From the NCBI GenBank assembly GCA_016169945.1, contig JADLSH010000256.1, positions 744,001-808,000 of the forward strand: 64,000 nucleotides of DNA, read 5' to 3'. Below, piece after piece: positions 1,393 through 51,010 of this stretch. The position numbers and the translations under genes are program-made. The notes beneath the pieces were generated by a model. It made no database searches and was not told where the DNA came from. It saw only the letters and a program-made list of their open reading frames with translations. Source of the DNA: Trachythela sp. YZ-2020 (Eukaryota > Cnidaria > Anthozoa > Malacalcyonacea > Clavulariidae). Numbering within the stretch: the stretch's first letter is position 1; every line of letters begins with the position of its first letter.

Positions 1393-1643
1393 CTGTCCTG
1401 GTTGTAATACACCTGTCTCGTCCATGACACCCATCATTAAGCGTGCTTCATCTGGTGGTAGAAGAATTCGAGCGCGGGAAAGAAGTTCATGAATACGATT
1501 TCTATGCATAGCGACCAACAGGGACTTAAAAAATGGCTCAGTTGTCAACTGTACGCCACCATTTGATAAAGAGCGATACGACATGGCAACCTTGGACCCG
1601 TTTCCCAAGAATGTGATAGCATCAGTTTCATTAACCAACATAC
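1393..1643 (-). CDS. Fusion gene exon 4: RdRP block before the catalytic core
   Basis: The acceptor TTTTCTGTACAG lies before base 1643. The exon completes Gly1457 and encodes EPFFKSLLVAMHRNRI, RARILLP and LMMGVMDETGVLQPGQ. In known RdRPs this block directly precedes the segment leading to the catalytic aspartates. The donor is CAG|GTGTGT (1392-1387), phase 0. The next exon is not found between 1 and 1392. Confidence 0.9.
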
Positions 1644-4600
1644 CTGTACAGAAAATTAAGATGGAAAAATTATTGAAATATTTTGCACGAAATACACTTA
1701 TTCAGTTAATATTGTTACCTGGTTACAATCGTTGTAGCAAAGGCTGATAACCTTGATTGAACTACATCTATAAACACTAGTATTGCACCATGCTCCTTTT
1801 TAAACATTATGCTCCAAATCACAGTATCTTCCGGCCTATAATTAGTTCGTTTTAGCTTCCTTTCCACAGCGTCCGATTGAACACTGAGGTGATTTAGAAA
1901 TCGACAAGTTACGACAACATTAACTTTTGCGTGAAATTTGTGCAAAAGGTGAGTGATTTAATTGGAACGTTTAAGACAATTAAAAAGTACGCATTATAAT
2001 TGCTCTTCAATAACTATCGTTAGCCTCAACTGAAACAATTTTACCGAATCCCTCAATCGTTCGGTCTCCACATCTTGAGTAGCGTTTTCCTGAAACTTAC
2101 CAGCCATTGTATCAAGCATTTCCTTTTGCAGACCAAGGAATGCCTCATCTGGAACTCCAAGATTCGATAGAAGCATAACAACTTGGTGATTTAGATAAAC
2201 AGCCTGAGGTCGAGATGTGTGGGTAACTTCAAGTCTATGGTGAGTGCTTTCGAATTTCCGCATACTTGGACGAAATGACGCCTTCCTTCCCGGCAACGTA
2301 GGATCACATGCTAGTACTCCTTTGTAACCAGCAAACCGTACTTGAAAAGCAGATGGTGTAAACGGTTTTCCCAACTTCTTTGCAACCTTAAACAAATTAA
2401 CGCGGTACAATTCAATGAAACCATCATATAATTATCTTACTGTCATTTTAACTGCTTTTGTATAAGTTAGGATGGTGGTGCGCTCACGTAATCTGCTCTT
2501 ATAATTTACTCTCACGCAATCGTGCGATTAATATGACTTCCATATTTTATATGGTTGGCGGTAAAGGAATTACGGTTTGGTAAATCGTTTAGGGTGCTCG
2601 ACCAAATTGTTTGGAGAACATAAAGTGAATTCACTGACAAGTGCTGAGACTTATATGAAAGAAAGGTACTGCAAATACTACTTAGAAGCATATATACAAT
2701 GTAAACTCTATTAATGCCTTGTTATGCTTAAATTGTTTGCACACCTCTTCCGCCATCTCCTCCGATATTCTACCCACTCCATCAGAAAAACAATATTCTT
2801 CGTCAGCTGTCATTACGTCATCTTCCTCCGTATGCATTTCATCGTCAGGCGTTTCTACGCTTGCGGTGTCCAGGGATGTAGAAAAGCATTGTCCCATTCG
2901 AGCCATATAAGTCGCCACACATCTAGACAATTACAAGCAAAAGAAAGTGTTTCTTTTAATAATATTTCATGCTGAGTTCTTTTGGCCTTCCTAGGATGTA
3001 TTAATCTTAACAATTATATTGAACTTAGAAAATATTTGTTATAATGCAGGATTGGTATTTTCAGCATGAAATTCGTGCAAAGAACTGTAACTTGTCGCTA
3101 TAATGTTGGTGAAGAAGTCAGTCCTGAAGAATTATATAACACAGTTGCACACGCCTTTGTTCTACATCATCACATGGTCCAATATTCTAAATAGGGAGCT
3201 TAAGAGGCAATGTCCACAAGAATCGAGCAAATCCAACAATTCGTGGCAAGAGTCAAAATTTCGAATTCGCTCTACTTTTAAATATAGTTAGGCCTTTATT
3301 AGATAACAATCGCTGGGCAGCCGGTTTTTGAAAATATTCTATATTTTTTGAGAAAATCGTTATACAAGAGTCCCTACCGGATACGCAAGCGAGAGACGCC
3401 CAACACGCGAGAATTGCGATCAAAATTATCAAACTTCACACAGAGCGTGTGTCAAAAAGAAAATACATATTTCAAATCTTAAACATTTTGCTTATAATAC
3501 AACTCTTTAACGTTGTTTGGGCGGAATTTGACGCTATTTGGGCAGTTGGAAAATATTCTGGAAGACAAAAGTCGGATGTATGTGTTTTCATATGCAAATT
3601 AGTATGCTCGAGAGAAAAAAAATTTTAAGTATCGGCAAGTGTTCTGATTGCAATGAAATTCAGTACATAGACTAAGGAAGAACATATCTTTCTATATTTG
3701 CAAAGTTTGGTTTGGGGAAAATGATTTGAGATTCACAACGATCGCTTCATTTGTTTATAATTATTTGTAAAAATCACGCTTTCCGAACAAAGTTTGACTA
3801 ACAATTTTTCCCAATAAAGAACGATCTGATTGCCGTAAAATTAACGCTAGAAACTAAGTAAGACATGTGCTTTCTGTTTTTGTAAAGTTTGGCTTGTAGA
3901 AATATATTTAGGCTCCAAAGAAAGCATTGCTTTTGTGCAATAATTTACGCACGAAACATTGCTAATTGATGATTGCATGACCGACAGTTCAACTTCACAA
4001 CTAGACGTCTGAATGCAACAAAATTTGCTCTAGAACCTTAAAAGAATCGTTTTTTCTATGCCCCATATACAGTAAGTTTAACTAGAAACATGAAATTCGG
4101 ACTGGATATAAAAGCTTTCAGCATTGTAGTTAATACATCCTGCATGTGCTTGATCAACGCGGCTATGTCGATGATTACATGTTTGGGCTTTTGCTGTTAA
4201 AACCATTGTTGTTTCATGTTGTTGTACTTTAAGCCTAACAAATACAGTAATAAAAACATACAAAACTTACTTACCAAAGCTTCTGATGTTGTTTAGAAGC
4301 CATCAGAATATGTTCGTGAATCGTGATCGTGACATCGATGGAAATAGTATGCACACTAATGTCTGTGACACAGGTAATGGGCTGTTTATATGGAAGCTGG
4401 GCTGGCCAGTTTAGCGAGACAGCCCGGTATTAAAGTGGGATGAATTTCTCTTGTGTTTATATGAGAAAATTTCATCCCGCTTGCCGGGCAATTTTGTTGT
4501 TTTGACATTGTTTTGACAGTTGTTAAAAATAGCTCGCGGCGGCATCTTTGAACTTTCATCCCAGCAAACGGGCCAGCCCGCTTGTCCATGTAAACGCACG

Positions 4601-7600
4601 GTAGTTTTTACTATAAAATTAACTACACAGCTTACCGAGCTGTCTCGCTAAGCGGGCCAGCCCGACTTCCATATAAGCAGTCCCTTAGTAGCTAGTGCAC
4701 TTGGCTCCATTCCGCTCCCATTTCTTAGTATTTTCATGTAGAGCGTTTTGAGTCAGAGATCAAAATGTCTTTATAAAATAGCTAAATTCACAAAGACTTG
4801 TTTAATGTTTTTCCATCGGACAACTATTTGAAGTAACAAATCATCCCTAGGGTGGGTCCTATAGGTAATTTTTTAGCCTTTTTGGCACTGGCACTGATCT
4901 ACAAGTTTTTCCAATAGGTCGATGTATGGCTTTTTTAATCTTCGTGAGCTATTTTTAACAACTGTCAAAACAATGTCAAAACAATGTCAAAACAACAAAA
5001 TTGTCCCGGCAAGCGGGATGAAATTTTCTCATATAAACACAAGAGAAATTCATCCCACTTTAATACCGCTAAACGGGCCAGCCCGGCTTCCATATAAACA
5101 GCCCCTTACCAGTGTTACAGACCTTAGTGTGCATACTATTTGCATCGATGTCATGATCACGAACATATTCTGATGGCTTCTAAACAACATCAGAAGCTTT
5201 GGTAAGTAAGTTTTGTATGTTTTTATTACTGTATTTGTTACGCTTAAAGTACAACAACATGAAACAACAATGGTTTTAACAGCAAAAGCCCAAACATGTA
5301 ATCATCGACTTAGCCGCGTTGATCAAGCACATGCAGCCACGGATGTATTAACTACCATGTTGAAAGCTTTTATATCCAGTCCGAATTTCATGTTTCTAGT
5401 TAAACTTATATGGGGCATAGAAAAAACGATTCTTTTAAGGTTCTAGAGCAAATTTTGTTGCATTCAGACGTCTAGTTGTGAAATTGAGCTGTCGGTCATG
5501 CAATCATCAATTAGCAATGTTTCGTGCGTAAATTATTGCACAAAAGCAGTGCTTTCTTTGGAGCCTAAATATATTTCTACAAGCCATACTTTACAAAAAC
5601 AGAAAGCACATGTCTTTCTTAGCTCCTAGCGTTAATTTTACGGCAATCAGATTATTCTTTATTGGGAAAAATTATTGGTCATATTTTGTACGGAAAGGGT
5701 GATTTTTACAAATAATTATAAACAAATGAAGCAATCGTTGTGAATCTCAAATCATTTTCCCCAAACCAAACTTTGCAAATATAGAAAGATATGTTCTTCC
5801 TTAGTCTATGTACTGAATTTCATTGCAATCACAACACTTGCCGATACTTAATTTTTTTTTCTTTCGAGCATACTAATTTGCATATGAAAACACATACATC
5901 CGACTTTTGTCTTCCAGAATATTTTCCAACTGCCCAAATAGTGTCAAATTCCGCCCAAACAACGTTAAAGAGTTGTATTATAAGCAAAATGTTTAAGATT
6001 TGAAATATGTATTTTCTTTTTGACACACGCTCTGTGTGAAGTTTGATAATTTTGATCGCAATTCTCGCGTGTTGGGCGTCTCTCGCGTGCGTATCCGGTA
6101 GGGACTCTTGTATAACGATTTTCTCCAAAAATATAGAATATTTTCAAAAACCGGCTGCCCAGCGATTGTTATCTAATGAAGGCGTAACTATATTCAAAAG
6201 TAGAACGAATTCGAAATTTTGACTTTTGCCACGATATGTTCGATTCTTGTGGACATTGGCTCTTAAGCAGTAAACGTTTTTGTCAGACTTGACGTCACAC
6301 CTATTTAATTAAGCTGTGAATATTGCGTCAGCCGTTCTTTCTTCTTGCCACAAACTGCTATATACTAAATATATAGATATATAGTTTTAGGCTCGTGATT
6401 TTAAGCTAGAACGGCTGTGTCTATCCTTAGCGGCCCTTTATCGTACAGGTACGCGTGGAATCAATCAGAGAAAACAATCTGTGTTGAGAAAAACGTGGCG
6501 TGTTAAATATCTCAAATATCGTGCAGAAATGATTACCCATTACTAAGTTATGTCGTTAGTAAGTAATTACCCGTGACGACGGAGTTGTCAAATTCTGAAT
6601 CAATATTCAAGGAGAAACTACTGTAGGAAAGTAAACAATATGTGTTAACTGTGACTAACTTTATATGACTGAAGTCTCCCATCCATCGTCGCACGTCCTC
6701 CGCTGGAAAACTGGGCCCCACAAACCAACAGCTATGGTTACGAAGTTGACTGTTTGAAGAGGCTAAGAACTGGAATGTCTTTCCTGCAATACTCAGCCCG
6801 TTGTTTAGAACTTGGTTGACGTTATCCAACAATAAATCAATACTCCCCCTTCCCATAGAAAGTTTCGAAAGATTCTCCTCTCGAATACTAACGCAAAGAA
6901 AATCATCTATTTCATAATGCCTAAGGACGCGATTCTTTACCAAAACCTCAGATGGGTACAGAAGAAGTCTGGTTGGAGTGATAATAACTCGTTTAATTAG
7001 AGCACAATGACTTGGAACTTGATTTCGGTTTTGCTTAGACTGAAGTTTAATGTCTCCAATTAAAAGCGTTTCTAGGGTCCTTTCTGGGTTGCAGAACACG
7101 TCTCGTTCTAACGCTTTACGCAATTTCTCCAAACAAGCCAGAACTACATTCGGATTTCGATTTCGTAGAAGTTCAGCGAGACGCGATTCATCAAGTCTTG
7201 CACGAACAGAAGGGTGGGATTTAAAAATACTCTCTAAGGTATACAGGACGTCAAAATCTAGTTCATCAGGAATATTGATATCTGGAAATCTTCCATAGGT
7301 GTTCTTCACTCTACTATAAAACGTTTTCTTTCCAAATCTCTCATCAAGTGTGGTTAGCAATGATCTTAGAAGTATGTACTCCTTTGAAGGAATTATGAAA
7401 CAATAGGTAAAACACTGACCCCATGCTTTCGCACCTCCTTCAACATCAACTACTCTTTCCCAGTAATTAACATCATCTGCAAAGTTCGGCACAGAACGAT
7501 CACGAAAATTTCTGACGAAGTCTGGGTATTCATCATCAGTGGAGAAACCTTGACTATGCGAATCACTATCCGACATGTCGCTGACGTCAATACCTTCATC

Positions 7601-10564
7601 TTGAACACCATAATCGCCATCATTATCACCATCAATATCGCCATCATTATCACCATCAATATCGCCATCATTATCACCGTCAATATCGCCATCATTATCG
7701 CCATCATTATGACCATCATTAACGCCATTATTGCCATCATCACCGTCGGCGTCAACTTCTTGATACACTCTAGGAGGATGTCTCACTGTAAAGAAAGCTC
7801 TTATCATTTCATCGTTATTCATGCTGCTATCGACCAGAAGAAAATTTTCAAACTCCTCGTACCGAACCTCGAGCTTGTAATTTCTGTTTCGCAATACGAA
7901 AAATATGGTCAACATGTTGAAGCTGTGGTCAAAACGCATGATAACTTCCTTCAGGATTTGGTTGGTAGGCCATTTACGTTCGAACTGAGATAGAGTGACC
8001 AAGGTACCAACAAAGAAGGATCTCGCTGGTACAATATGGAGCGACTCGATGAGCTTGCGAGATTTTTGCGGAAGTAAAGGATGCACCCAAACATTTAGCA
8101 GTTTCTCATTCGATATTGTTGTGATATCACACCACACTTGTGACACATGACAAATGAACTCATCCTTGGATCGAAATTCTTGGTGCATGTTATTCTTTGG
8201 CTGTAGCATAAAAGTAATTAGGGACGACTCTTCTTCTTCGGAGAATATTAGACTGGATAAAGAATCAGACGGGCGTGATGTTGTTGGGACGACATTGAAC
8301 GCGCTCTCAAAGCAATTGGTAACAATTTTCGATTTTTCATCACGACCTTCCTGTTCCTCAAAGAAAAGGACAACTACGGTAATGATGGGGCTGTATCGCT
8401 TAACATCGGGACTCATTTCGATTTCCTTAACTTCAGACGAGGTCAAATCTGGCAGTTTTACTTCGCATTTGAATTCTTTTGCTTGTGGTTCGGCATCTTC
8501 GCTATCCATAACATTAGCAACTGCATCTCTCATATTCCCTTCTTTCACTACTAAATTCATAGCTGAAGCTTTTTCCTTTTCGGTACAAATGACGGCAAAG
8601 TAGCTTCCAGGTCTACGCGAAGCACGACCACGACTTTGTACAAAAGCGCACAAAGTTGCTGCACCCTCAAAGCGGACGACTAAATTGCAAATTGGGACAT
8701 CTAAACCCTCTTCCAAGACACTTGTGCTAACAAGTAGTTTAATGACTCCCGACCTAAAGTCCCGTAATAAGACTTCTTGCTCGTCTTTCCAGGCCATTCC
8801 ATCAAAACTTCCAACTCCATGGCCAACAAATGCAGCAGGATTCAACAAATTGGATACGTCGGTATTCACTCTGAGTTTTTTGCAGAGTTTGTACGCAGTC
8901 TTGCGCATGGAGACAAAAATAATTCCTCTGGAAGATGGATCTTCTTTGACTCGATAAATAAACTGGTGTATCCGATTCTCAAGACATCTGTATCGGTCTG
9001 ACATAGGATAATTCTCGTTAACTTCTTTGGCAGCATGTCCTCTTAGTTCTTGAAATGTATGTTTTGTTCCAATCAATTTCTTTAGAGCACTTTCGGTGGG
9101 ACAAATAGCTTGAATGATGCTGTTTATGTAATCCTCCAGGTACACCAATGCGTCCTTGTAGCAGAGAACTTGGCTTATATCAATAACGCTGAGCAGACGC
9201 ATCATGTGCTCACCAACGATCAAGGCTTTTACCTTGCTATTATCGCCATGACATCTCTCTATTAAATTTCTCAGAGCTCCTCTAAAATGACTAGAAAATA
9301 CAAAGAGCCCTCCAAGTGCCTGTTGATAACCTGGTGTGGATTCAATATAGCTTCTTTGGATATCTACAATATGATCCATTATCAGCCTTTCAAGAATAAT
9401 TTGACGGTTGTCCGTTGTTGTTACTTCGTCGTATGACGTATTGGGAGTGTTGACATGAGCAACCAGATCATCCGATTCAATTGGCATTTTGATTTTGCAA
9501 TGTAGATTTTTCAATAACTTTTGAAGCTTCTCGGTGGTTCTTTCCTTCGTGACTTCCCCAGCTGGTGAAGCGGTCAATCCTAGCACAAGAGGTTTAAAAG
9601 AGTCAGGTGTGACTTTTTTATAAAAATCATTCATGACTTTTTTGTAAGGGTGATTGCCAGTGCAGTGATGCGCTTCGTCGAAGGCGAGGACTGAAATGTT
9701 CGAAAGTCGGATAGCAGAAATTTCCAGAGAATCAAGAAATATTTGATGAGTAAGGACTAAAATATCGACTGCTCTATCGTTTAAGGCTTGATGAATGTTT
9801 TTCTTTTGAAAGGGAACCATTTCGCCTGTTAAAGTCTCAACTCTTAAATGAGGGAGCTGAGACTTAAAATATGCACTTTGTTGATAAGCCAGTGGTACGC
9901 GATCAACGATGAACACCATGAACTTTCCTGGATTAAGTTTCTTCATACAACTGAACACCATCGCTGCAACTAAAGTCTTACCGGAACCAGTAGGGAGATA
10001 GACCAGTGTATTTCCACGCATGACGGACAGAAATAGTTCACGCTGGTAGTTCCGTGGGATCTGACGTGTCAAACTATCGATCTCTTGTGACGTATAGGTC
10101 AAGCCTGTTATGTCGCAGTATTTCATGGGCTCGCAAGGCTGGTACGACTGGCATGTGAATTCGGATGGGAGATATTTGATCACTTCAACTCCTAACCCTT
10201 GAAGAGTATTTGTTATCCGCGCAAGTTTTTTCGTTTCTATCCTCTCTACGCCATTTGAGAGATAAAGGTTATCTACTTTGTAGCAAACAAGCAATTTGGA
10301 GGCGACGTACGTCACATTACCTACATGGTTCCCACATTCTTTGCAACGGATCATATACGGGCAATATCTCGCACTTTTCTTGCTTTTAGGATTTTCTTCT
10401 TTCGTGACCTTTGAATAAGCTTTGTCCTCCATTTCTTCTTTTACAGCAAGATGTTGTTGAGATGGAGGCATTGTTGCTAGGATCAGGATCTCTTTTTTTG
10501 CAAGTTCCGTGGAACAATTTTTGCAGTGAAGTGAAAACTCGTTCCCAAAGTAACTTGATGCCAT
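1393..10564 (-). CDS. RD-like zinc domain + Dicer/RLR-type helicase + cellular RdRP fusion (3' partial)
   Basis: Four exons (10564-6660, 2922-2745, 2386-2101, 1643-1393) join in phase at GT-AG sites to give 1540 residues without a stop. Residues 14-77 hold a C14-x2-C17 ... C74-x2-C77-G zinc pattern like the RNA-binding RD of LGP2/MDA5. Residues 170-680 are a duplex-RNA-activated helicase: PTGSGKT 191-197, DEAHH 296-300, LGLTASP 328-334, STSVLEEGLDVP 613-624, QSRGRASR 643-650. Residues ~1193-1540 follow the eukaryotic RdRP block order: TPTRLLLYP, SQLRNHSCWF, MGDFSHIK, ARMGQCFS, DGVGRIS, PSAFQVRFAGYKGV, SFRPSMRKF, YLNHQVVMLLSNLGVPDEAF, MMGVMDETG. The catalytic DxDGD block is expected left of base 1. 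An in-frame TAA four codons upstream supports the ATG at 10564. Known families: Dictyostelium RdRPs carry a Dicer-like helicase, and nematode DRH helicases work with RdRPs. Inferred role: recognising dsRNA or aberrant RNA and amplifying small RNA. Alternative: adjacent genes misjoined, unlikely because the helicase and RdRP start share one exon. Confidence 0.93.
1715..1945 (-). other. Open frame inside intron 3, not an exon of the fusion gene
   Basis: A 76-codon frame lies between exons 3 and 4. Exon 3 joins exon 4 directly in phase with RdRP continuity. Including this stretch between its candidate splice sites would break the frame. I recognise no family in it. Confidence 0.5.
2101..2386 (-). 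CDS. Fusion gene exon 3: RdRP block
   Basis: The acceptor is TTTGTTTAAG|GTTGCA. Codons 1362-1456 read VAKKLGKPFTPSAFQVRF, then AGYKGV, SFRPSMRKF and YLNHQVVMLLSNLGVPDEAF, the central signature of eukaryotic RdRPs. The donor is GCTG|GTAAGT (2100-2095), leaving one base that pairs with the two bases opening exon 4. The open frame to 1994 past this donor is intronic. Confidence 0.92.
2745..2922 (-). CDS. Fusion gene exon 2: RdRP block
   Basis: The acceptor ends in TTGTCTAG; the first base completes Lys1302. The exon then encodes CVATYMARMGQCFS and, after an acidic stretch, SDGVGRISEEMAEE, both canonical cellular-RdRP motifs. The donor is GAG|GTGTGC (2744-2739), leaving phase 0. Length is 178 bases (1 + 59 codons). 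The longer open reading frame that continues past 2745 is intron read-through. Confidence 0.92.
3198..6268. repeat. 3.07-kb foldback element in intron 1 of the fusion gene
   Basis: The left arm (3198 to about 4538) and right arm (about 4943 to 6268) are inverted copies of roughly 1.33 kb with a loop of about 400 bases. For example, the sequence before AGGCAATGTCCACAAGAAT at 3208 reappears inverted near 6255. Small indels separate the arms. Short frames in the arms mirror each other and I treat them as non-coding. Transcription of the intron would allow a long dsRNA hairpin. Confidence 0.9.
4376..4688. mobile_element. MITE-like unit inside the left foldback arm
   Basis: The ends are inverted copies: GGGCTGTTTATATGGAAGC at the left and the complement of GGCTTCCATATAARCAGYCCC at the right, with inner inverted repeats around GGGATGAAATTTTC. 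A partial inverted copy occupies 4943-5106 in the other arm. The superfamily is not assigned because target duplications are unclear. Confidence 0.55.
6660..10564 (-). CDS. Fusion gene exon 1: zinc module, helicase, RdRP N-terminal part
   Basis: This single exon supplies codons 1-1301 plus two bases. It ends inside the RdRP block WMGDFSHIK at AA|GTTAGT (donor 6659-6654). Between helicase and RdRP motifs (about residues 690-1190) I see no family I can name. A run of Asp/Gly/Asn repeats at residues ~938-1005 sits there. The helicase exon is unbroken, so it is unlikely to be a processed pseudogene or a chance fusion. The plus-strand sequence upstream of the ATG contains a possible 3' splice site (TTTTTTGATAG on the minus strand, about 15 bases before the ATG), so a 5' UTR intron is plausible. 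No promoter is recognisable. Confidence 0.95.
7604..7735 (-). repeat. In-frame minisatellite encoding Asp/Gly/Asn repeats inside the fusion gene
   Basis: A ~24-base unit is repeated three to four times and translates as DGDNDGDI-type repeats at about residues 943-987. It keeps frame. It lies in the linker before the RdRP core, so it probably forms a flexible acidic segment and may vary in length between alleles. Confidence 0.85.
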
Positions 10565-11750
10565 AACTGTCTTTTAAAACCTATCAAAAAATGAGTTAGC
10601 AGTTTACACGAACCCTAAACGAAAGATAAGTGCTCCTGTGTTTACATGAGCCCTGCATGAAAAAACTCAGAGATCCCAAGGATAGCGCAAAGTTTAAAAG
10701 ACTGCGTTGCATTATTGCATGAGCTATGAGTTTTTACATTCTATAAATAGCAATGATATTAGTTTACTTATGGTAGAGCTAAGGGCGGACCATTAGAAAA
10801 GTGATGAGTGGGGGGGGGGAGACTCTTTTCCCATGCCTAATATTTTTTTCGGGTGCTTTGGGTATTCAATAATTTTTTGCCACCAAATTTGTGCATCAAT
10901 GTTTTCCCCCAGGAATTTTTTGTTGACTCTTGGGCAGCATACAATTTGAGATGCAATGTCCATGGTTTGCTAATAATCGCGAAGCAGCGGTACCCAGAAG
11001 TGGCAGTGGTCTTAGTGCAAGAGTCAGAACCAAAATGTCCATATATGCCCTTTTGTGCAAATATATGGAAAGCCATGAAGATGCCTTGGAACATGTCCAG
11101 GAGAAGACAGCATTATGCAGGAGAGAAATTTTAAATACCTCAAAAAGATGGTGGTCATGTTACAAAAGTAATAAAGGAAAGTTTGTTCAAAATCATTTTA
11201 ATTGAAAGTTAAACAAATTTTAATTTATCACTCAATTGTGATTGTTGTGAATGTTGTCCGCTGCTCATGGTTACAACAACCCCAAATGTTGCATGTCTTC
11301 ATTTGAATGTGTAAATCTGTAATCTGTTTTTAGTTTGTTAAGCCAAACTTTTTATAATCAGTTCTTCACCAATCTTTTGCCCCAACTCGAGGAACTGGTA
11401 AAGGAGTGTGAAGAAATGATCAAAAATCTTCAAGAAATTGTGTAAAACTACCGTAGCAAATTTGGCACTTGTTTTACTCAACGGTGGTAGAAAGAAAGCG
11501 CAAACACAATGCTAGAAAAGAAAAAGGGTATGAAGGTAAAAAGAAGCAGCAAAGCAATCAGCCTGCTACATCAGTGATGCTTTATGATAGAGCTCAGATG
11601 AGGATCAATTATGCTGTTAAAATAAACATATTATTCGTTGCATCTATTTAAATGAGATATAAAGCATTTAGAACTAATTAAATGCCTAATTTAGAACTGG
11701 AACTAAAACCTAATTTAGAACTGGATTATATTATATGCTGTAGTTATACT
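10565..11750. other. 5' flank of the fusion gene; no gene assigned
   Basis: A poly-G tract lies at 10811-10819. Short plus-strand frames at 10853-11205 and 11469-11651 look coding-like in composition (the second is Lys/Arg-rich), but I recognise no family and see no consistent splice chain. They may be element debris. Confidence 0.4.
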
Positions 11751-17234: not shown

Positions 17235-18714
17235 TAGAACTTGATTTAGTCAGATCAGATTGTTGTCCATTACTTTATAAAATTGTGTAAGATGACACTA
17301 GACTCACTAGTATATTATTTTCTCCGTATTTTCAATGCCAAGAAAGAATGCGAACTTGTGTAGGAGAAAAATCACTCACTAGCAGTATTATATGGTTAGT
17401 TTATTAAAAAATGTTCTTGGTATGTCATAAAAATAGGTTTCTGTGCAAGATGTTCTGGAGTTCCTGAAGTCAGGACGCCAGATTCCTGCACACTTCGCCA
17501 ATCTGGAAAAGGCCACGAGGAGAAAAACCTTCCACGCGCTTTCAGAATTCTCAAGAAACTTTGTGTATGAAGGTATCATAGTAACCTAGCTCCCAAGGCG
17601 TTTTCTTATTAAACGTGCATGATTTTTTGTTTATTAAAAATGTTTTTGAAATTTTGTTTTTTAATAATATTTTCCAGGCTGCTGCCTACCATCCCCGAAC
17701 AAATGGTCAAGATGAGCGCATCAATGTTACCCTGAAACGTCATCTCTCAAAGGTAATAATAATCTTAGTAGATTTTAAAATATCTTTAATATTGTAGTTA
17801 CCAGATGATAGTGTTGATCTCTGATAATTTAATATTGTAGTATGTTCTAACTACTTTGCTTTAATGGCACCCAATAAACATTCATATATATGCAAATGAC
17901 GAATTGCAAGAACTTAATATGTTATGATTTGATAGCATTCTGTACTTATTGTTGATGGTCAATGAACAGCAAGATGACTGGGACCTGTTCATAGACCAAG
18001 CATGTTGGGGTGTTCGTTCCTCAAACAATGAGTCAACAAAACATACCCCATACGAAGTCATGCATATAAGGATGCCACGATTCCCATCTGAACAGCCTGA
18101 AGAGGAAGACCTCACCCCTATTAGTCTGGAGGAACCCACCCCTAATGAAGTGACTGACTATGGTCGAAACAAACAGGAACAGCTCATTACAGTGGAAGCC
18201 AAGGTATGTTGCAACCAACAAAACAATAAAATTCATTTACAGTGTGGATTGTGATAGGTATCAGCCTAATGGTGTACATATTTTCTAGAAAAGGTTGCAC
18301 ACAACGTTACCCCTTCAACAGTGTTGTTATGTATTATTTCTCATAATACTGCATGTACTGTACCAGAGGTATTTAAACTTAGAGTCTAAATTGTTCTGTT
18401 GTCAGGTTACTGCTAATAACACACAGGCGAAAGAAAAAGTGAAGAAATATTATAAGTTGAAGAAGATGAAAGGATTTAAAGCCTATAAATTTCATATTGG
18501 CCAAGCTGTCATGAAGGCTAATCCGAAAAAGCTTGGAGGCCGAAAGGGTGACCGCATGACCTCTGATTGGCTTAGTGGTTATGTTGTCGAAACGTTGACG
18601 GATCAACAAGTTGTGTTGCGCAATGTCAAGACCAATAAGGTTTTGAAAAGTATCAGCCATGTTCACATTAAACCATTCAGAGAAAGAGGTGTTGCAGGTG
18701 ATGATGTGGGAGGT

Positions 18715-19010
18715 GCTGACCAGGTAGAAAGTGTTGGTGATGAGCTGGAAAGTGACCAAGTAGTGAGTGAAAATGGTGACGAGGTAGCTGGTGTTAGTGA
18801 TGAGGTTGGTGGTATTGGTGGTAAGATTGTTAGTGGTAGGGTTGCTGGTGTTAGTGATGAGGTTGCTGGTGTTAGTGGTAGGGTTGCTGGTGTTAGTGGA
18901 AAGGTTGGTGGTAAGGTTGCTGACGTGAGTGGAAAGGTTGCTGATGTGAGTGGAAAGGTTGCAGTTGTTAGTGATGAGGTTGCGGTTGTTAGTGATGAGG
19001 TTGCTAAGTT
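18715..19010 (+). repeat. Coding minisatellite (Val/Ser/Gly/Asp repeats)
   Basis: Units of about 21-24 bases encode repeats such as VAGVSDE, VAGVSGR and VADVSGK in the frame of the integrase-bearing exon. The array keeps frame although the neighbouring protease exons have stops. Confidence 0.85.
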
Positions 19011-19799
19011 TTCTGATCAAGTCGAACACTTAAAGCTACTGGCTAGGAGAGCAAAACAACTGTGTGAGCCTTACCTTGATTTTGGGCCTGCTAAATTGGC
19101 AAGAAGAGACATATGGTCCCTCATCCCAACACAAGAGGTTCCATCACAGGAATTAAAGCTCATTAAACATGAAGTTCCTCATTTTATGCCTGGCTGGTTA
19201 TCTCACAGGGTAAGTTAGACTTTGTTTTGCACAATTGGTATAGCTGGATGTAAATAGTAGCTACTTACTATATACAAGCAAACGTGTTTGAGAGACCCTT
19301 TATTGCCGCAATCCTGACAATTAATACACCAGGCAGAAATCTTAATATCGACACCTTACTTACTAATATGTTATTGTTTACCATGTATAGGTCATTGATG
19401 CTTATTTCTGGAGTATGGCAGAGGAGACATGTGGGACTGAATGCTACATTTCGCAGATAGTCCAAAACAATTGTAGCACTAGACGTACATGGTCCAACAT
19501 CAATTTTAGGGTGCTCGAGAAGATCCTGCTTCCCATCAACTCTACTCAAAACCACTGGACATTATTGGTTAGTATAAATCTAAGTATGCCTGTTCGTATG
19601 TAGGCTAGTGTTTGATACTCTGGGTGCAAGGTTGGGTTAGCATATGGAGAGACAGTAATCTTATTATTTAGCATAACCAGAATATTCATCAAACTCGATT
19701 TTGCACAGGTGTTAGACAAAGAGTGAAAACAAAGAATATACATTGACCCTCTCAAGAGTGGACAGGCATCAGCCTCAAAACCAAATTGATGGATCATAT

Positions 19800-49335: not shown

Positions 49336-49885
49336 ATTCTGTGGGGAAATTGTGGTAAAACTTTATCAAATAAACTTGAGAAACTTTCAAATTTTGACGC
49401 CGATGTCAATAGCTTATTGGAAAAACTAGGGTGGGATAATCCAAACATACAATATTAAACTCAAAAAACGTTGATGGTTATTAAATCTTTAATTCCCGAA
49501 TATCTGTGTTCTAAATTTACATATTGCAACAATGTAACTTTTTACTTGCTTCGAGACTCTGTGAACAAACTTGCTGTTCCTTTACCCCGCACCAATTATC
49601 TTAAAAATAGCTTTAACTATAGTGGTGCGGCTTTATGAAACAGCTTACCCGGCAACATAAGACAAGCGGAATCTCTGAATGAATTTCAACAAATGTTGAA
49701 AGATCATATTTGATAGGCACGGCATTAATGAAAAAAAAGGTATAATATAAAATAGATTTCCAACATAATTAGGTATATTTTGTTATTGCATGTTATATTA
49801 ATGTAGATTAAACTTATTGTGAAGCCTGATGAAACCAGCGTGTTTAAATAAAGATTTGATTGTTTTATTGATTGATTGATTGAAA
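49336..49885 (+). pseudogene. LINE tail resumed after the TIR transposon
   Basis: The RT C-terminal frame continues (NKLEKLSNFDADVNSLLEKL, then stretches like LRDSVNKLAVPLPRTN and SGAAL) with stops. It ends with TGAAGCCTGATGAAACCAGC and an (ATTG)n tail at about 49867-49883, as in L2/CR1 elements. Confidence 0.85.
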
Positions 49886-51010
49886 CGGTAGGAACGCTGG
49901 GAACGACAAGAACGCCACAAACGGCAAGAACGGTAAGAATGCCAGGAACAGCAAGAACGCTAGGAATGGTAGGAACGGCAGGAATGGTAAGAACGGTAGG
50001 GACGGAAAAAGCGGTGGGGATGGAAAGAACGGTAGGAACGGTAAGAACGCTAAAAACGCTAGGAACGGCAAAAACGCTAGCAACAGCAAGAACGCCAGGA
50101 ACGGTAGGAACGGAAAGAACTGTAGGAATGGAAGAACGGTAGGAACGCCAAGAACGCCAAGAACGCTAGAAACCGCTAAAACGCTAGTAAGACCAAGAAC
50201 GGCAGGAACGGTAGGAACGTAAAAAAACTGTAGGAATGGAAAGAACGGTAGGAAAGTCAGGAACGGTAGGAACGGCAAGAACGCTAGGAACGGCAAGAAC
50301 GTTAGGAACGGTAGGAACCGAAAGAACGCCAGGAACGATAGGAACGGAAAGAGCGGTAGGAACGACAAGAACGCTAGAACGGTAGGAACGCCAGGAGCGG
50401 CAAGAACGCTAGGAACAGCAAGAACGCTAGGAAAGCCAAGAACGCTAGGAACAGCAAGAACCCTAGGAACGGCAAGAACGCTAGGAATGGCAAGAACGCT
50501 AGGAACGGCAAGAACGCTAGGAACGGACAGAACGCTAGGAACAGCAAGAACGCTAGGAACGGAAAGAACGCTAGGAACGGCAAGAACGCTAGGAACGGCT
50601 AGAACGCTAGGAACGGGAAGAGCGGTAGGAACCGAAAGAACGGTAGGAAGCCAGAAACAATAGGAACGGAAAGAACGCTAGGAACAGCAAGAACGCTAGG
50701 AACGAGAAGAACGCTAGGAAGGCCAAGAACGCTAGGAACAGCAAGAACGCTAGGAACGGCAAGAACGCTAGGAACGGCTAGAACGCTAGGAACGGGAAGA
50801 GCGGTAGGAACCGAAAGAACGGTAGGAAGCCAGAAACAATAGGAACGGAAAGAACGCTAGGAACAGCAAGAACGCTAGGAACGGCAAGAACGCCAGGAAC
50901 GAGAAGAACGCTAGGAACGAGAAGAACGCTAGGAACGGGAAGAACGCTAGGAACGGCAGGAACGCTAGGAATGGCAGGAACAGCAAGAACGCCAGGACCG
51001 CTAGGAATTA
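49886..51010. repeat. 18-bp minisatellite, about 1.1 kb
   Basis: The unit AGGAACGGCAAGAACGCT is made of two related 9-mers and is repeated about 60 times with many variants. A higher-order duplication is visible: 50626-50700 is nearly repeated at 50806-50890. Long frames in either strand (LPFLAF-type on minus) are artefacts of the 3n period. Confidence 0.95.

Follow-up and report, generated by a model that had tools for sequence, protein, structure and literature searches.

A helicase-RNA-dependent RNA polymerase fusion gene with additional end modules in the anthozoan Trachythela sp. YZ-2020

The locus and its gene model

We analyzed a 64,000-nucleotide stretch (the window) of the anthozoan Trachythela sp. 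YZ-2020, contig JADLSH010000256.1, positions 744,001 to 808,000. The assembly (G000) has 578 Mb in 396 contigs, and the window corresponds to C277:744001-808000 in our numbering. The minus strand carries the first part of a gene that joins a helicase of the RIG-I-like receptor (RLR)/Dicer type to a cellular RNA-dependent RNA polymerase (RdRP). Its features are listed below in window coordinates, with residues counted from the ATG at 10564.

6660..10564, minus: exon 1 from the ATG, comprising an RLR-type C-terminal domain (CTD), helicase, acidic repeat linker and RdRP start (open frame, Pfam, in-phase donor, one-piece alignment with P0124)
10169..10543, minus: N-terminal RLR CTD (regulatory domain) fold, residues 8-132; the CxxC pairs occupy positions 14-17 and 74-77 of the protein
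8489..10066, minus: RLR/Dicer-type helicase, residues 167-692, with PTGSGKT (Walker A), DEAHH, TASP and QSRGRASR
7613..7753, minus: acidic DGDNDGDI repeat linker between helicase and RdRP, residues 938-984 (from the translation)
6660..6982, minus: RdRP domain start within exon 1, residues about 1195-1302 (PF05183 profile 1-118 of 582, E 2.1e-23)
2745..2922, minus: exon 2, RdRP (PF05183 profile 118-184, E 8.2e-16; splice sites)
2101..2386, minus: exon 3, RdRP (PF05183 profile 176-283, E 4.4e-30; splice sites)
1393..1643, minus: exon 4, RdRP (PF05183 profile 283-365, E 1.6e-11; splice sites; continuation outside the window)
C277:743702-743930, 740444-741204, 736002-736541, 733748-735377 and a last exon ending near 732.3 kb: later exons, beyond the window

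Exon 1 lies in a frame of 1341 codons without a stop (window 6548-10573, minus), with a conserved ATG at 10564. Pfam places DEAD at residues 172-337 (E 2.3e-17) and Helicase_C at residues 535-650 (E 7.3e-18), and the PF05183 domain begins in the same frame. With such E-values, a chance match is excluded. A preliminary description of this DNA had proposed that a complete Dicer/RLR-type helicase and the beginning of a cellular RdRP share one exon, and that three further RdRP exons follow in phase and without stops. Both proposals hold, and all four helicase motifs it had cited were found in exon 1. The exon end and start pairs are 6660/2922, 2745/2386 and 2101/1643, followed by a donor at 1393; the internal junctions are all GT/AG and in phase, and the spliced in-window model is 1540 codons long from the ATG, without a stop. 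The profile search that the description had suggested (PF05183, DEAD/Helicase_C) places successive segments of the RdRP profile over the four exons.

Residues 1-1540 of the model align in one piece with residues 1-1504 of Dendronephthya gigantea P0124 at 67% identity, which supports the three splices. This octocoral is the closest named relative; Desmophyllum is 56% and Montipora 51% identical over their main aligned pieces. An NCBIfam scan returned only helicase models, all below their cut-offs (e.g., Hef nuclease at 189 bits against a cut-off of 610), and prokaryote-style family names were dropped for this reason. A rival reading, for which we found no support, is that neighboring helicase and RdRP genes were wrongly joined. 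We rejected two separate genes, since the helicase and the first RdRP segment share one uninterrupted exon. Independent database entries show this joined architecture in hexacorals, in one octocoral and one chytrid, and in algae, oomycetes and dinoflagellates, making a wrong join exceedingly improbable. A single polypeptide with helicase and RdRP in an animal genome, as first described, is thus borne out by the shared exon and the correct frames.

Beyond the window, the gene extends as far as roughly C277:732.3 kb, for a total span of about 22 kb. The RdRP active site is intact: GDLDGDLYFV, with the DxDGD motif, spans the exon 5/6 junction outside the window. C277 holds two further copies, at about 549-569 and 653-673 kb, with matching pieces of at least 1 kb being 91-99% identical. 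We call the three tandem copies A, B and C, where copy C is the window gene (C277:732-755 kb). Copies A and C have a longer exon 1 than copy B. Another contig, C160, holds two diverged fusion genes, D160 and E160, at 860-876 and 883-899 kb; E160 was read without its first third, with 878-882 kb left out. This one animal genome therefore has at least five helicase-RdRP genes, three of them close tandem copies and two diverged with an intact nucleotidyltransferase motif (see below). A plain single-exon RdRP is found on C108.

End modules and relatives

The preliminary description was right about the helicase and RdRP but missed two modules at the ends of the chain, an N-terminal RIG-I-type CTD and a nucleotidyltransferase module that lies outside the window. 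The first has the predicted fold of the RLR C-terminal (regulatory) domain, with four cysteines in CKNC and CKEC. The window gene shares both the predicted helicase fold and the predicted CTD fold with RLRs and with DRH-1/DRH-3 of C. elegans. Unlike in those proteins, its CTD (8-132) precedes the helicase (167-692), the reverse of the RLR order of helicase then CTD, and an RdRP is fused behind. No CARD family appeared among the Pfam matches of exon 1 down to E 0.1. Among RLRs, RIG-I and MDA5 carry N-terminal CARDs and LGP2 lacks them. The best match of the helicase is an ancestral Dicer construct by sequence, and MDA5 and RIG-I by fold.

At the other end, a poly(A)/terminal uridylyltransferase (TUTase)-like palm (PF22600) follows the RdRP in Acropora P0006 and Nematostella P0011, above the cut-off. 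Bryopsis P0078 scores 24.9 bits, below the cut-off of 27. The best matches of the module by sequence in the PDB, searched with Acropora P0006 and E160, are TUT4, TUT7, Cid1 and GLD-2. Unlike in these enzymes, the module sits behind an RdRP, and its catalytic motif is degenerate in the window gene. A module profile built from seven proteins matches other long fusions too, including those of oomycetes, Effrenium and Cladochytrium. To count as a long fusion, a protein had to reach 1900 residues and show two motifs. Of 185 proteins, 35 were long enough, and removal of P0001, P0008, P0066, P0093, P0095 and P0181 left 29. Of these, 24 have the GS..DxD motif; many of the 29 are close oomycete relatives and not independent. 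D160 and E160 keep this palm motif, reading GSSATFFFEDTSDIDL and GSSANFLFRLKSDLDL, with PF22600 E-values of 1.8e-11 and 2.4e-17.

The second half of the module profile, which lacks the palm motif, also matches the C-termini of plain RdRPs from oyster (P0093, E 1.1e-12), Lingula (P0066, 6.4e-10) and Ptychodera (P0039, 2.8e-9), with E-values calculated over 186 sequences. Other bilaterian plain RdRPs match there as well. These matches point to a vestige of the nucleotidyltransferase module in bilaterian RdRPs. In P0066 and P0093, the two scanned with Pfam, the RdRP was the only domain reported. In related sequences, the matching region overlaps Pfam DUF7752.

Among the relatives, Nematostella P0011 is homologous to the window gene along their shared length. 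P0121 is a 2792-residue relative on one 9488-base contig, with all parts in one frame. As genomic relatives have introns there, we read this contig as a transcript, and it is probably an mRNA; its source label “lgn” presumably means Logan. The fusion was also found in Ostreobium P0147, Effrenium P0169 and Bryopsis P0078. Ostreobium is a genus of green algae found in the skeletons of corals, and Effrenium is a dinoflagellate of the coral-symbiont family.

An RdRP tree of 44 rows was built with a quick method and used unrooted only, as its root fell on the very long branch of C108. The window gene and Dendronephthya pair with an SH-aLRT of 100, and eight cnidarian fusions form one group (100). 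Fusion versus plain architecture requires three changes on this tree, against a mean of 15 after shuffling (0 of 500 shuffles were as low), with the fusion rows partly picked by a fusion-profile search and four rows long-branched. The tree would fit either one origin with losses or two to three events.

The preliminary description considered such a fusion undescribed in animals. This is refuted by Bollmann et al. 2016 (PMC4791657), who report the DEAD-HelC-RdRP order in Hydra magnipapillata, Nematostella vectensis, Dictyostelium and peronosporomycete oomycetes, likewise with helicase and RdRP in one chain and in the same order. A first description in animals is therefore ruled out. The main text of that paper has no match for RIG-I, nucleotidyltransferase, C-terminal or zinc, and the CTD and nucleotidyltransferase end modules seem undescribed there. 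The word “helicase” is absent from the main text of a 2019 survey of animal RdRPs (PMC6396948). A literature search gave no account of an RLR-type CTD or nucleotidyltransferase in these proteins, with most subscription papers outside its reach. Added here to the taxa of Bollmann et al. are scleractinian corals, octocorals, ulvophytes, dinoflagellates and chytrids.

Proposed function and its alternatives

Similar activities are known as separate proteins. The RDRC of S. pombe consists of Rdp1, Cid12 and Hrr1 (PMC4038458) and has the same three catalytic kinds, RdRP, nucleotidyltransferase and helicase, in three proteins, whereas the window-gene type has one chain. In C. elegans, DRH-3 associates with the RdRP EGO-1 and with EKL-1 (PMC6351104), and pUG tails made by RDE-3 recruit RdRPs and limit Orsay virus (PMC12265681).

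Domains, domain order, intact helicase and RdRP motifs and a degenerate nucleotidyltransferase motif are established for the window copy, as read from its sequence and from predicted folds. We think it rather probable that the window gene is a single-chain counterpart of such RdRP complexes (yeast Rdp1-Hrr1-Cid12; worm DRH-3/EGO-1 plus RDE-3), with the accessory activities in one chain. Hrr1 is not known to have an RLR-type CTD. An RLR-type RNA-end-binding domain would have moved ahead of an RLR/Dicer-type helicase; behind the helicase come a linker and the RdRP, and a TUTase-like module closes the chain at its C-terminus. The CTD and helicase may recognize and translocate on double-stranded RNA (dsRNA) or structured template ends and hand the template over to the RdRP, whose second-strand synthesis would yield dsRNA for RNA silencing or antiviral defense. 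In relatives with an intact nucleotidyltransferase, the template 3' end would be tailed first and so licensed, as by the separate RDE-3 in C. elegans. A role as an RNA-silencing or antiviral amplifier is plausible, and the dsRNA product may feed small interfering RNAs (siRNAs), though this is uncertain.

Several observations weigh against the single-chain counterpart. At the N-terminal end, the helicase cannot be assigned to RLR or Dicer kin from its sequence alone. A CTD profile of cnidarian proteins has no match in seven individually inspected long fusions (P0147, P0154, P0166, P0169, P0170, P0172 and P0173) and matches weakly in Bremia P0153 (E 4e-4) and Pythium P0160 (E 1.5e-4; 186-sequence set). 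P0154 and P0169 have two CxxC pairs despite the missing profile match. At the C-terminal end, the catalytic nucleotidyltransferase motif is missing in five of the 29 long fusions (P0124, P0147, P0149, P0150 and P0159). The window gene itself lacks GS..DxD, the aligned place reading GTSRTMLFHQKSAIELCVL, and its PF22600 match (E 0.003) is under the cut-off. On the motif, an active nucleotidyltransferase in the window gene was rejected, and this gene thus falls outside the full four-activity model. Among the tandem copies, the degenerate motif was seen in the window copy. The full-length Dendronephthya model likewise lacks the motif, so the loss is shared and old, and the module was retained yet is probably catalytically dead in the octocoral-type lineage. 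Its part in the window gene would be no more than a structural or regulatory one, and tailing may possibly be done by D160 and E160, the active-motif paralogues of the same genome.

All three C277 copies also bear apparent lesions: a stop at residue 91 in copy A, frame changes in two exons of copy B, and two extra bases in the last exon of copy C relative to A. Together with the degenerate nucleotidyltransferase motif and a copy-specific 3 kb insertion in intron 1, these would fit a decaying tandem duplicate in a genome where only the C160 paralogues work. We consider such decay unlikely. The window copy stays open for 2593 residues through exons 1-8, Dendronephthya has a full-length model with the same degenerate motif, and the lesions may be assembly errors or alleles. 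Over 2593 codons, copies A and C show 52 non-synonymous and 27 synonymous differences, a non-synonymous to synonymous ratio (pN/pS) of 0.53 without correction for mutation bias (binomial p 0.007), which is consistent with some purifying selection.

The last point against our preferred reading comes from Nematostella, which has such a gene and in which one study detected no secondary siRNAs (PMC12768352). The RdRP might instead make long dsRNA for RLR/interferon-like signaling, amplifying the signal for hexacoral RIG-I/MDA5-type sensors. The fused CTD is the ligand-binding domain of RLRs, and Nematostella RdRP1-3, which may include the fusion, rise with poly(I:C) alongside RLRs and interferon regulatory factors (PMC8476169); three of the four Nematostella RdRPs respond to a viral mimic (PMC12768352). 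However, the closest separate-subunit analogues, RDRC and DRH-3/EGO-1, work in small-RNA pathways. We therefore hold a signaling role in place of siRNA amplification to be a minority prospect.

A wider reading of the single-chain counterpart is tentative and, on balance, doubtful. The RLR-CTD/helicase/RdRP/TUTase chain would be an ancient eukaryotic all-in-one RNA amplifier, and the split complexes of yeast and worm its dismantled counterparts. Bilaterian plain RdRPs would be descendants that lost the helicase along with the catalytic half of the nucleotidyltransferase and kept its second half, and in the cnidarian form a single enzyme would detect RNA ends and both tail and copy the template. 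RdRP silencing is usually pictured as separate proteins that need to meet, and a conserved single chain would be a natural model in which the entire reaction could be expressed. Such a chain would tie RIG-I-type sensing to RNA-dependent RNA synthesis in one molecule, and it would give a direct route to the role of RdRPs in corals and anemones, for which no siRNA amplification has been found.

Intron 1 palindrome and other window features

The insertion in intron 1 is a palindrome with the following position in the window.

3205..6261, no strand: 3057-base palindromic insertion in intron 1 (inverted repeats; CTTAAG duplicates at the flanks; comparison of copies A, B and C)

The palindrome is nearly perfect, with arm pieces 85-99% complementary and the longest measuring 454 and 396 nt. 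Copy A shows the empty site, and copy B, whose intron is shorter, lacks the insertion too. The palindrome resembles a fold-back or long-inverted-repeat transposon of recent origin. When transcribed, it would fold into a long dsRNA hairpin, within a gene that itself encodes a putative dsRNA enzyme.

Two repetitive open frames lie elsewhere in the window. The frame at 18289-19218 (309 codons) begins like a protein and then turns into degenerate VSDEVAGVSGKV repeats, and the one at 49865-50677 (270 codons) consists of a PFLPFLAFLPFL-type repeat.

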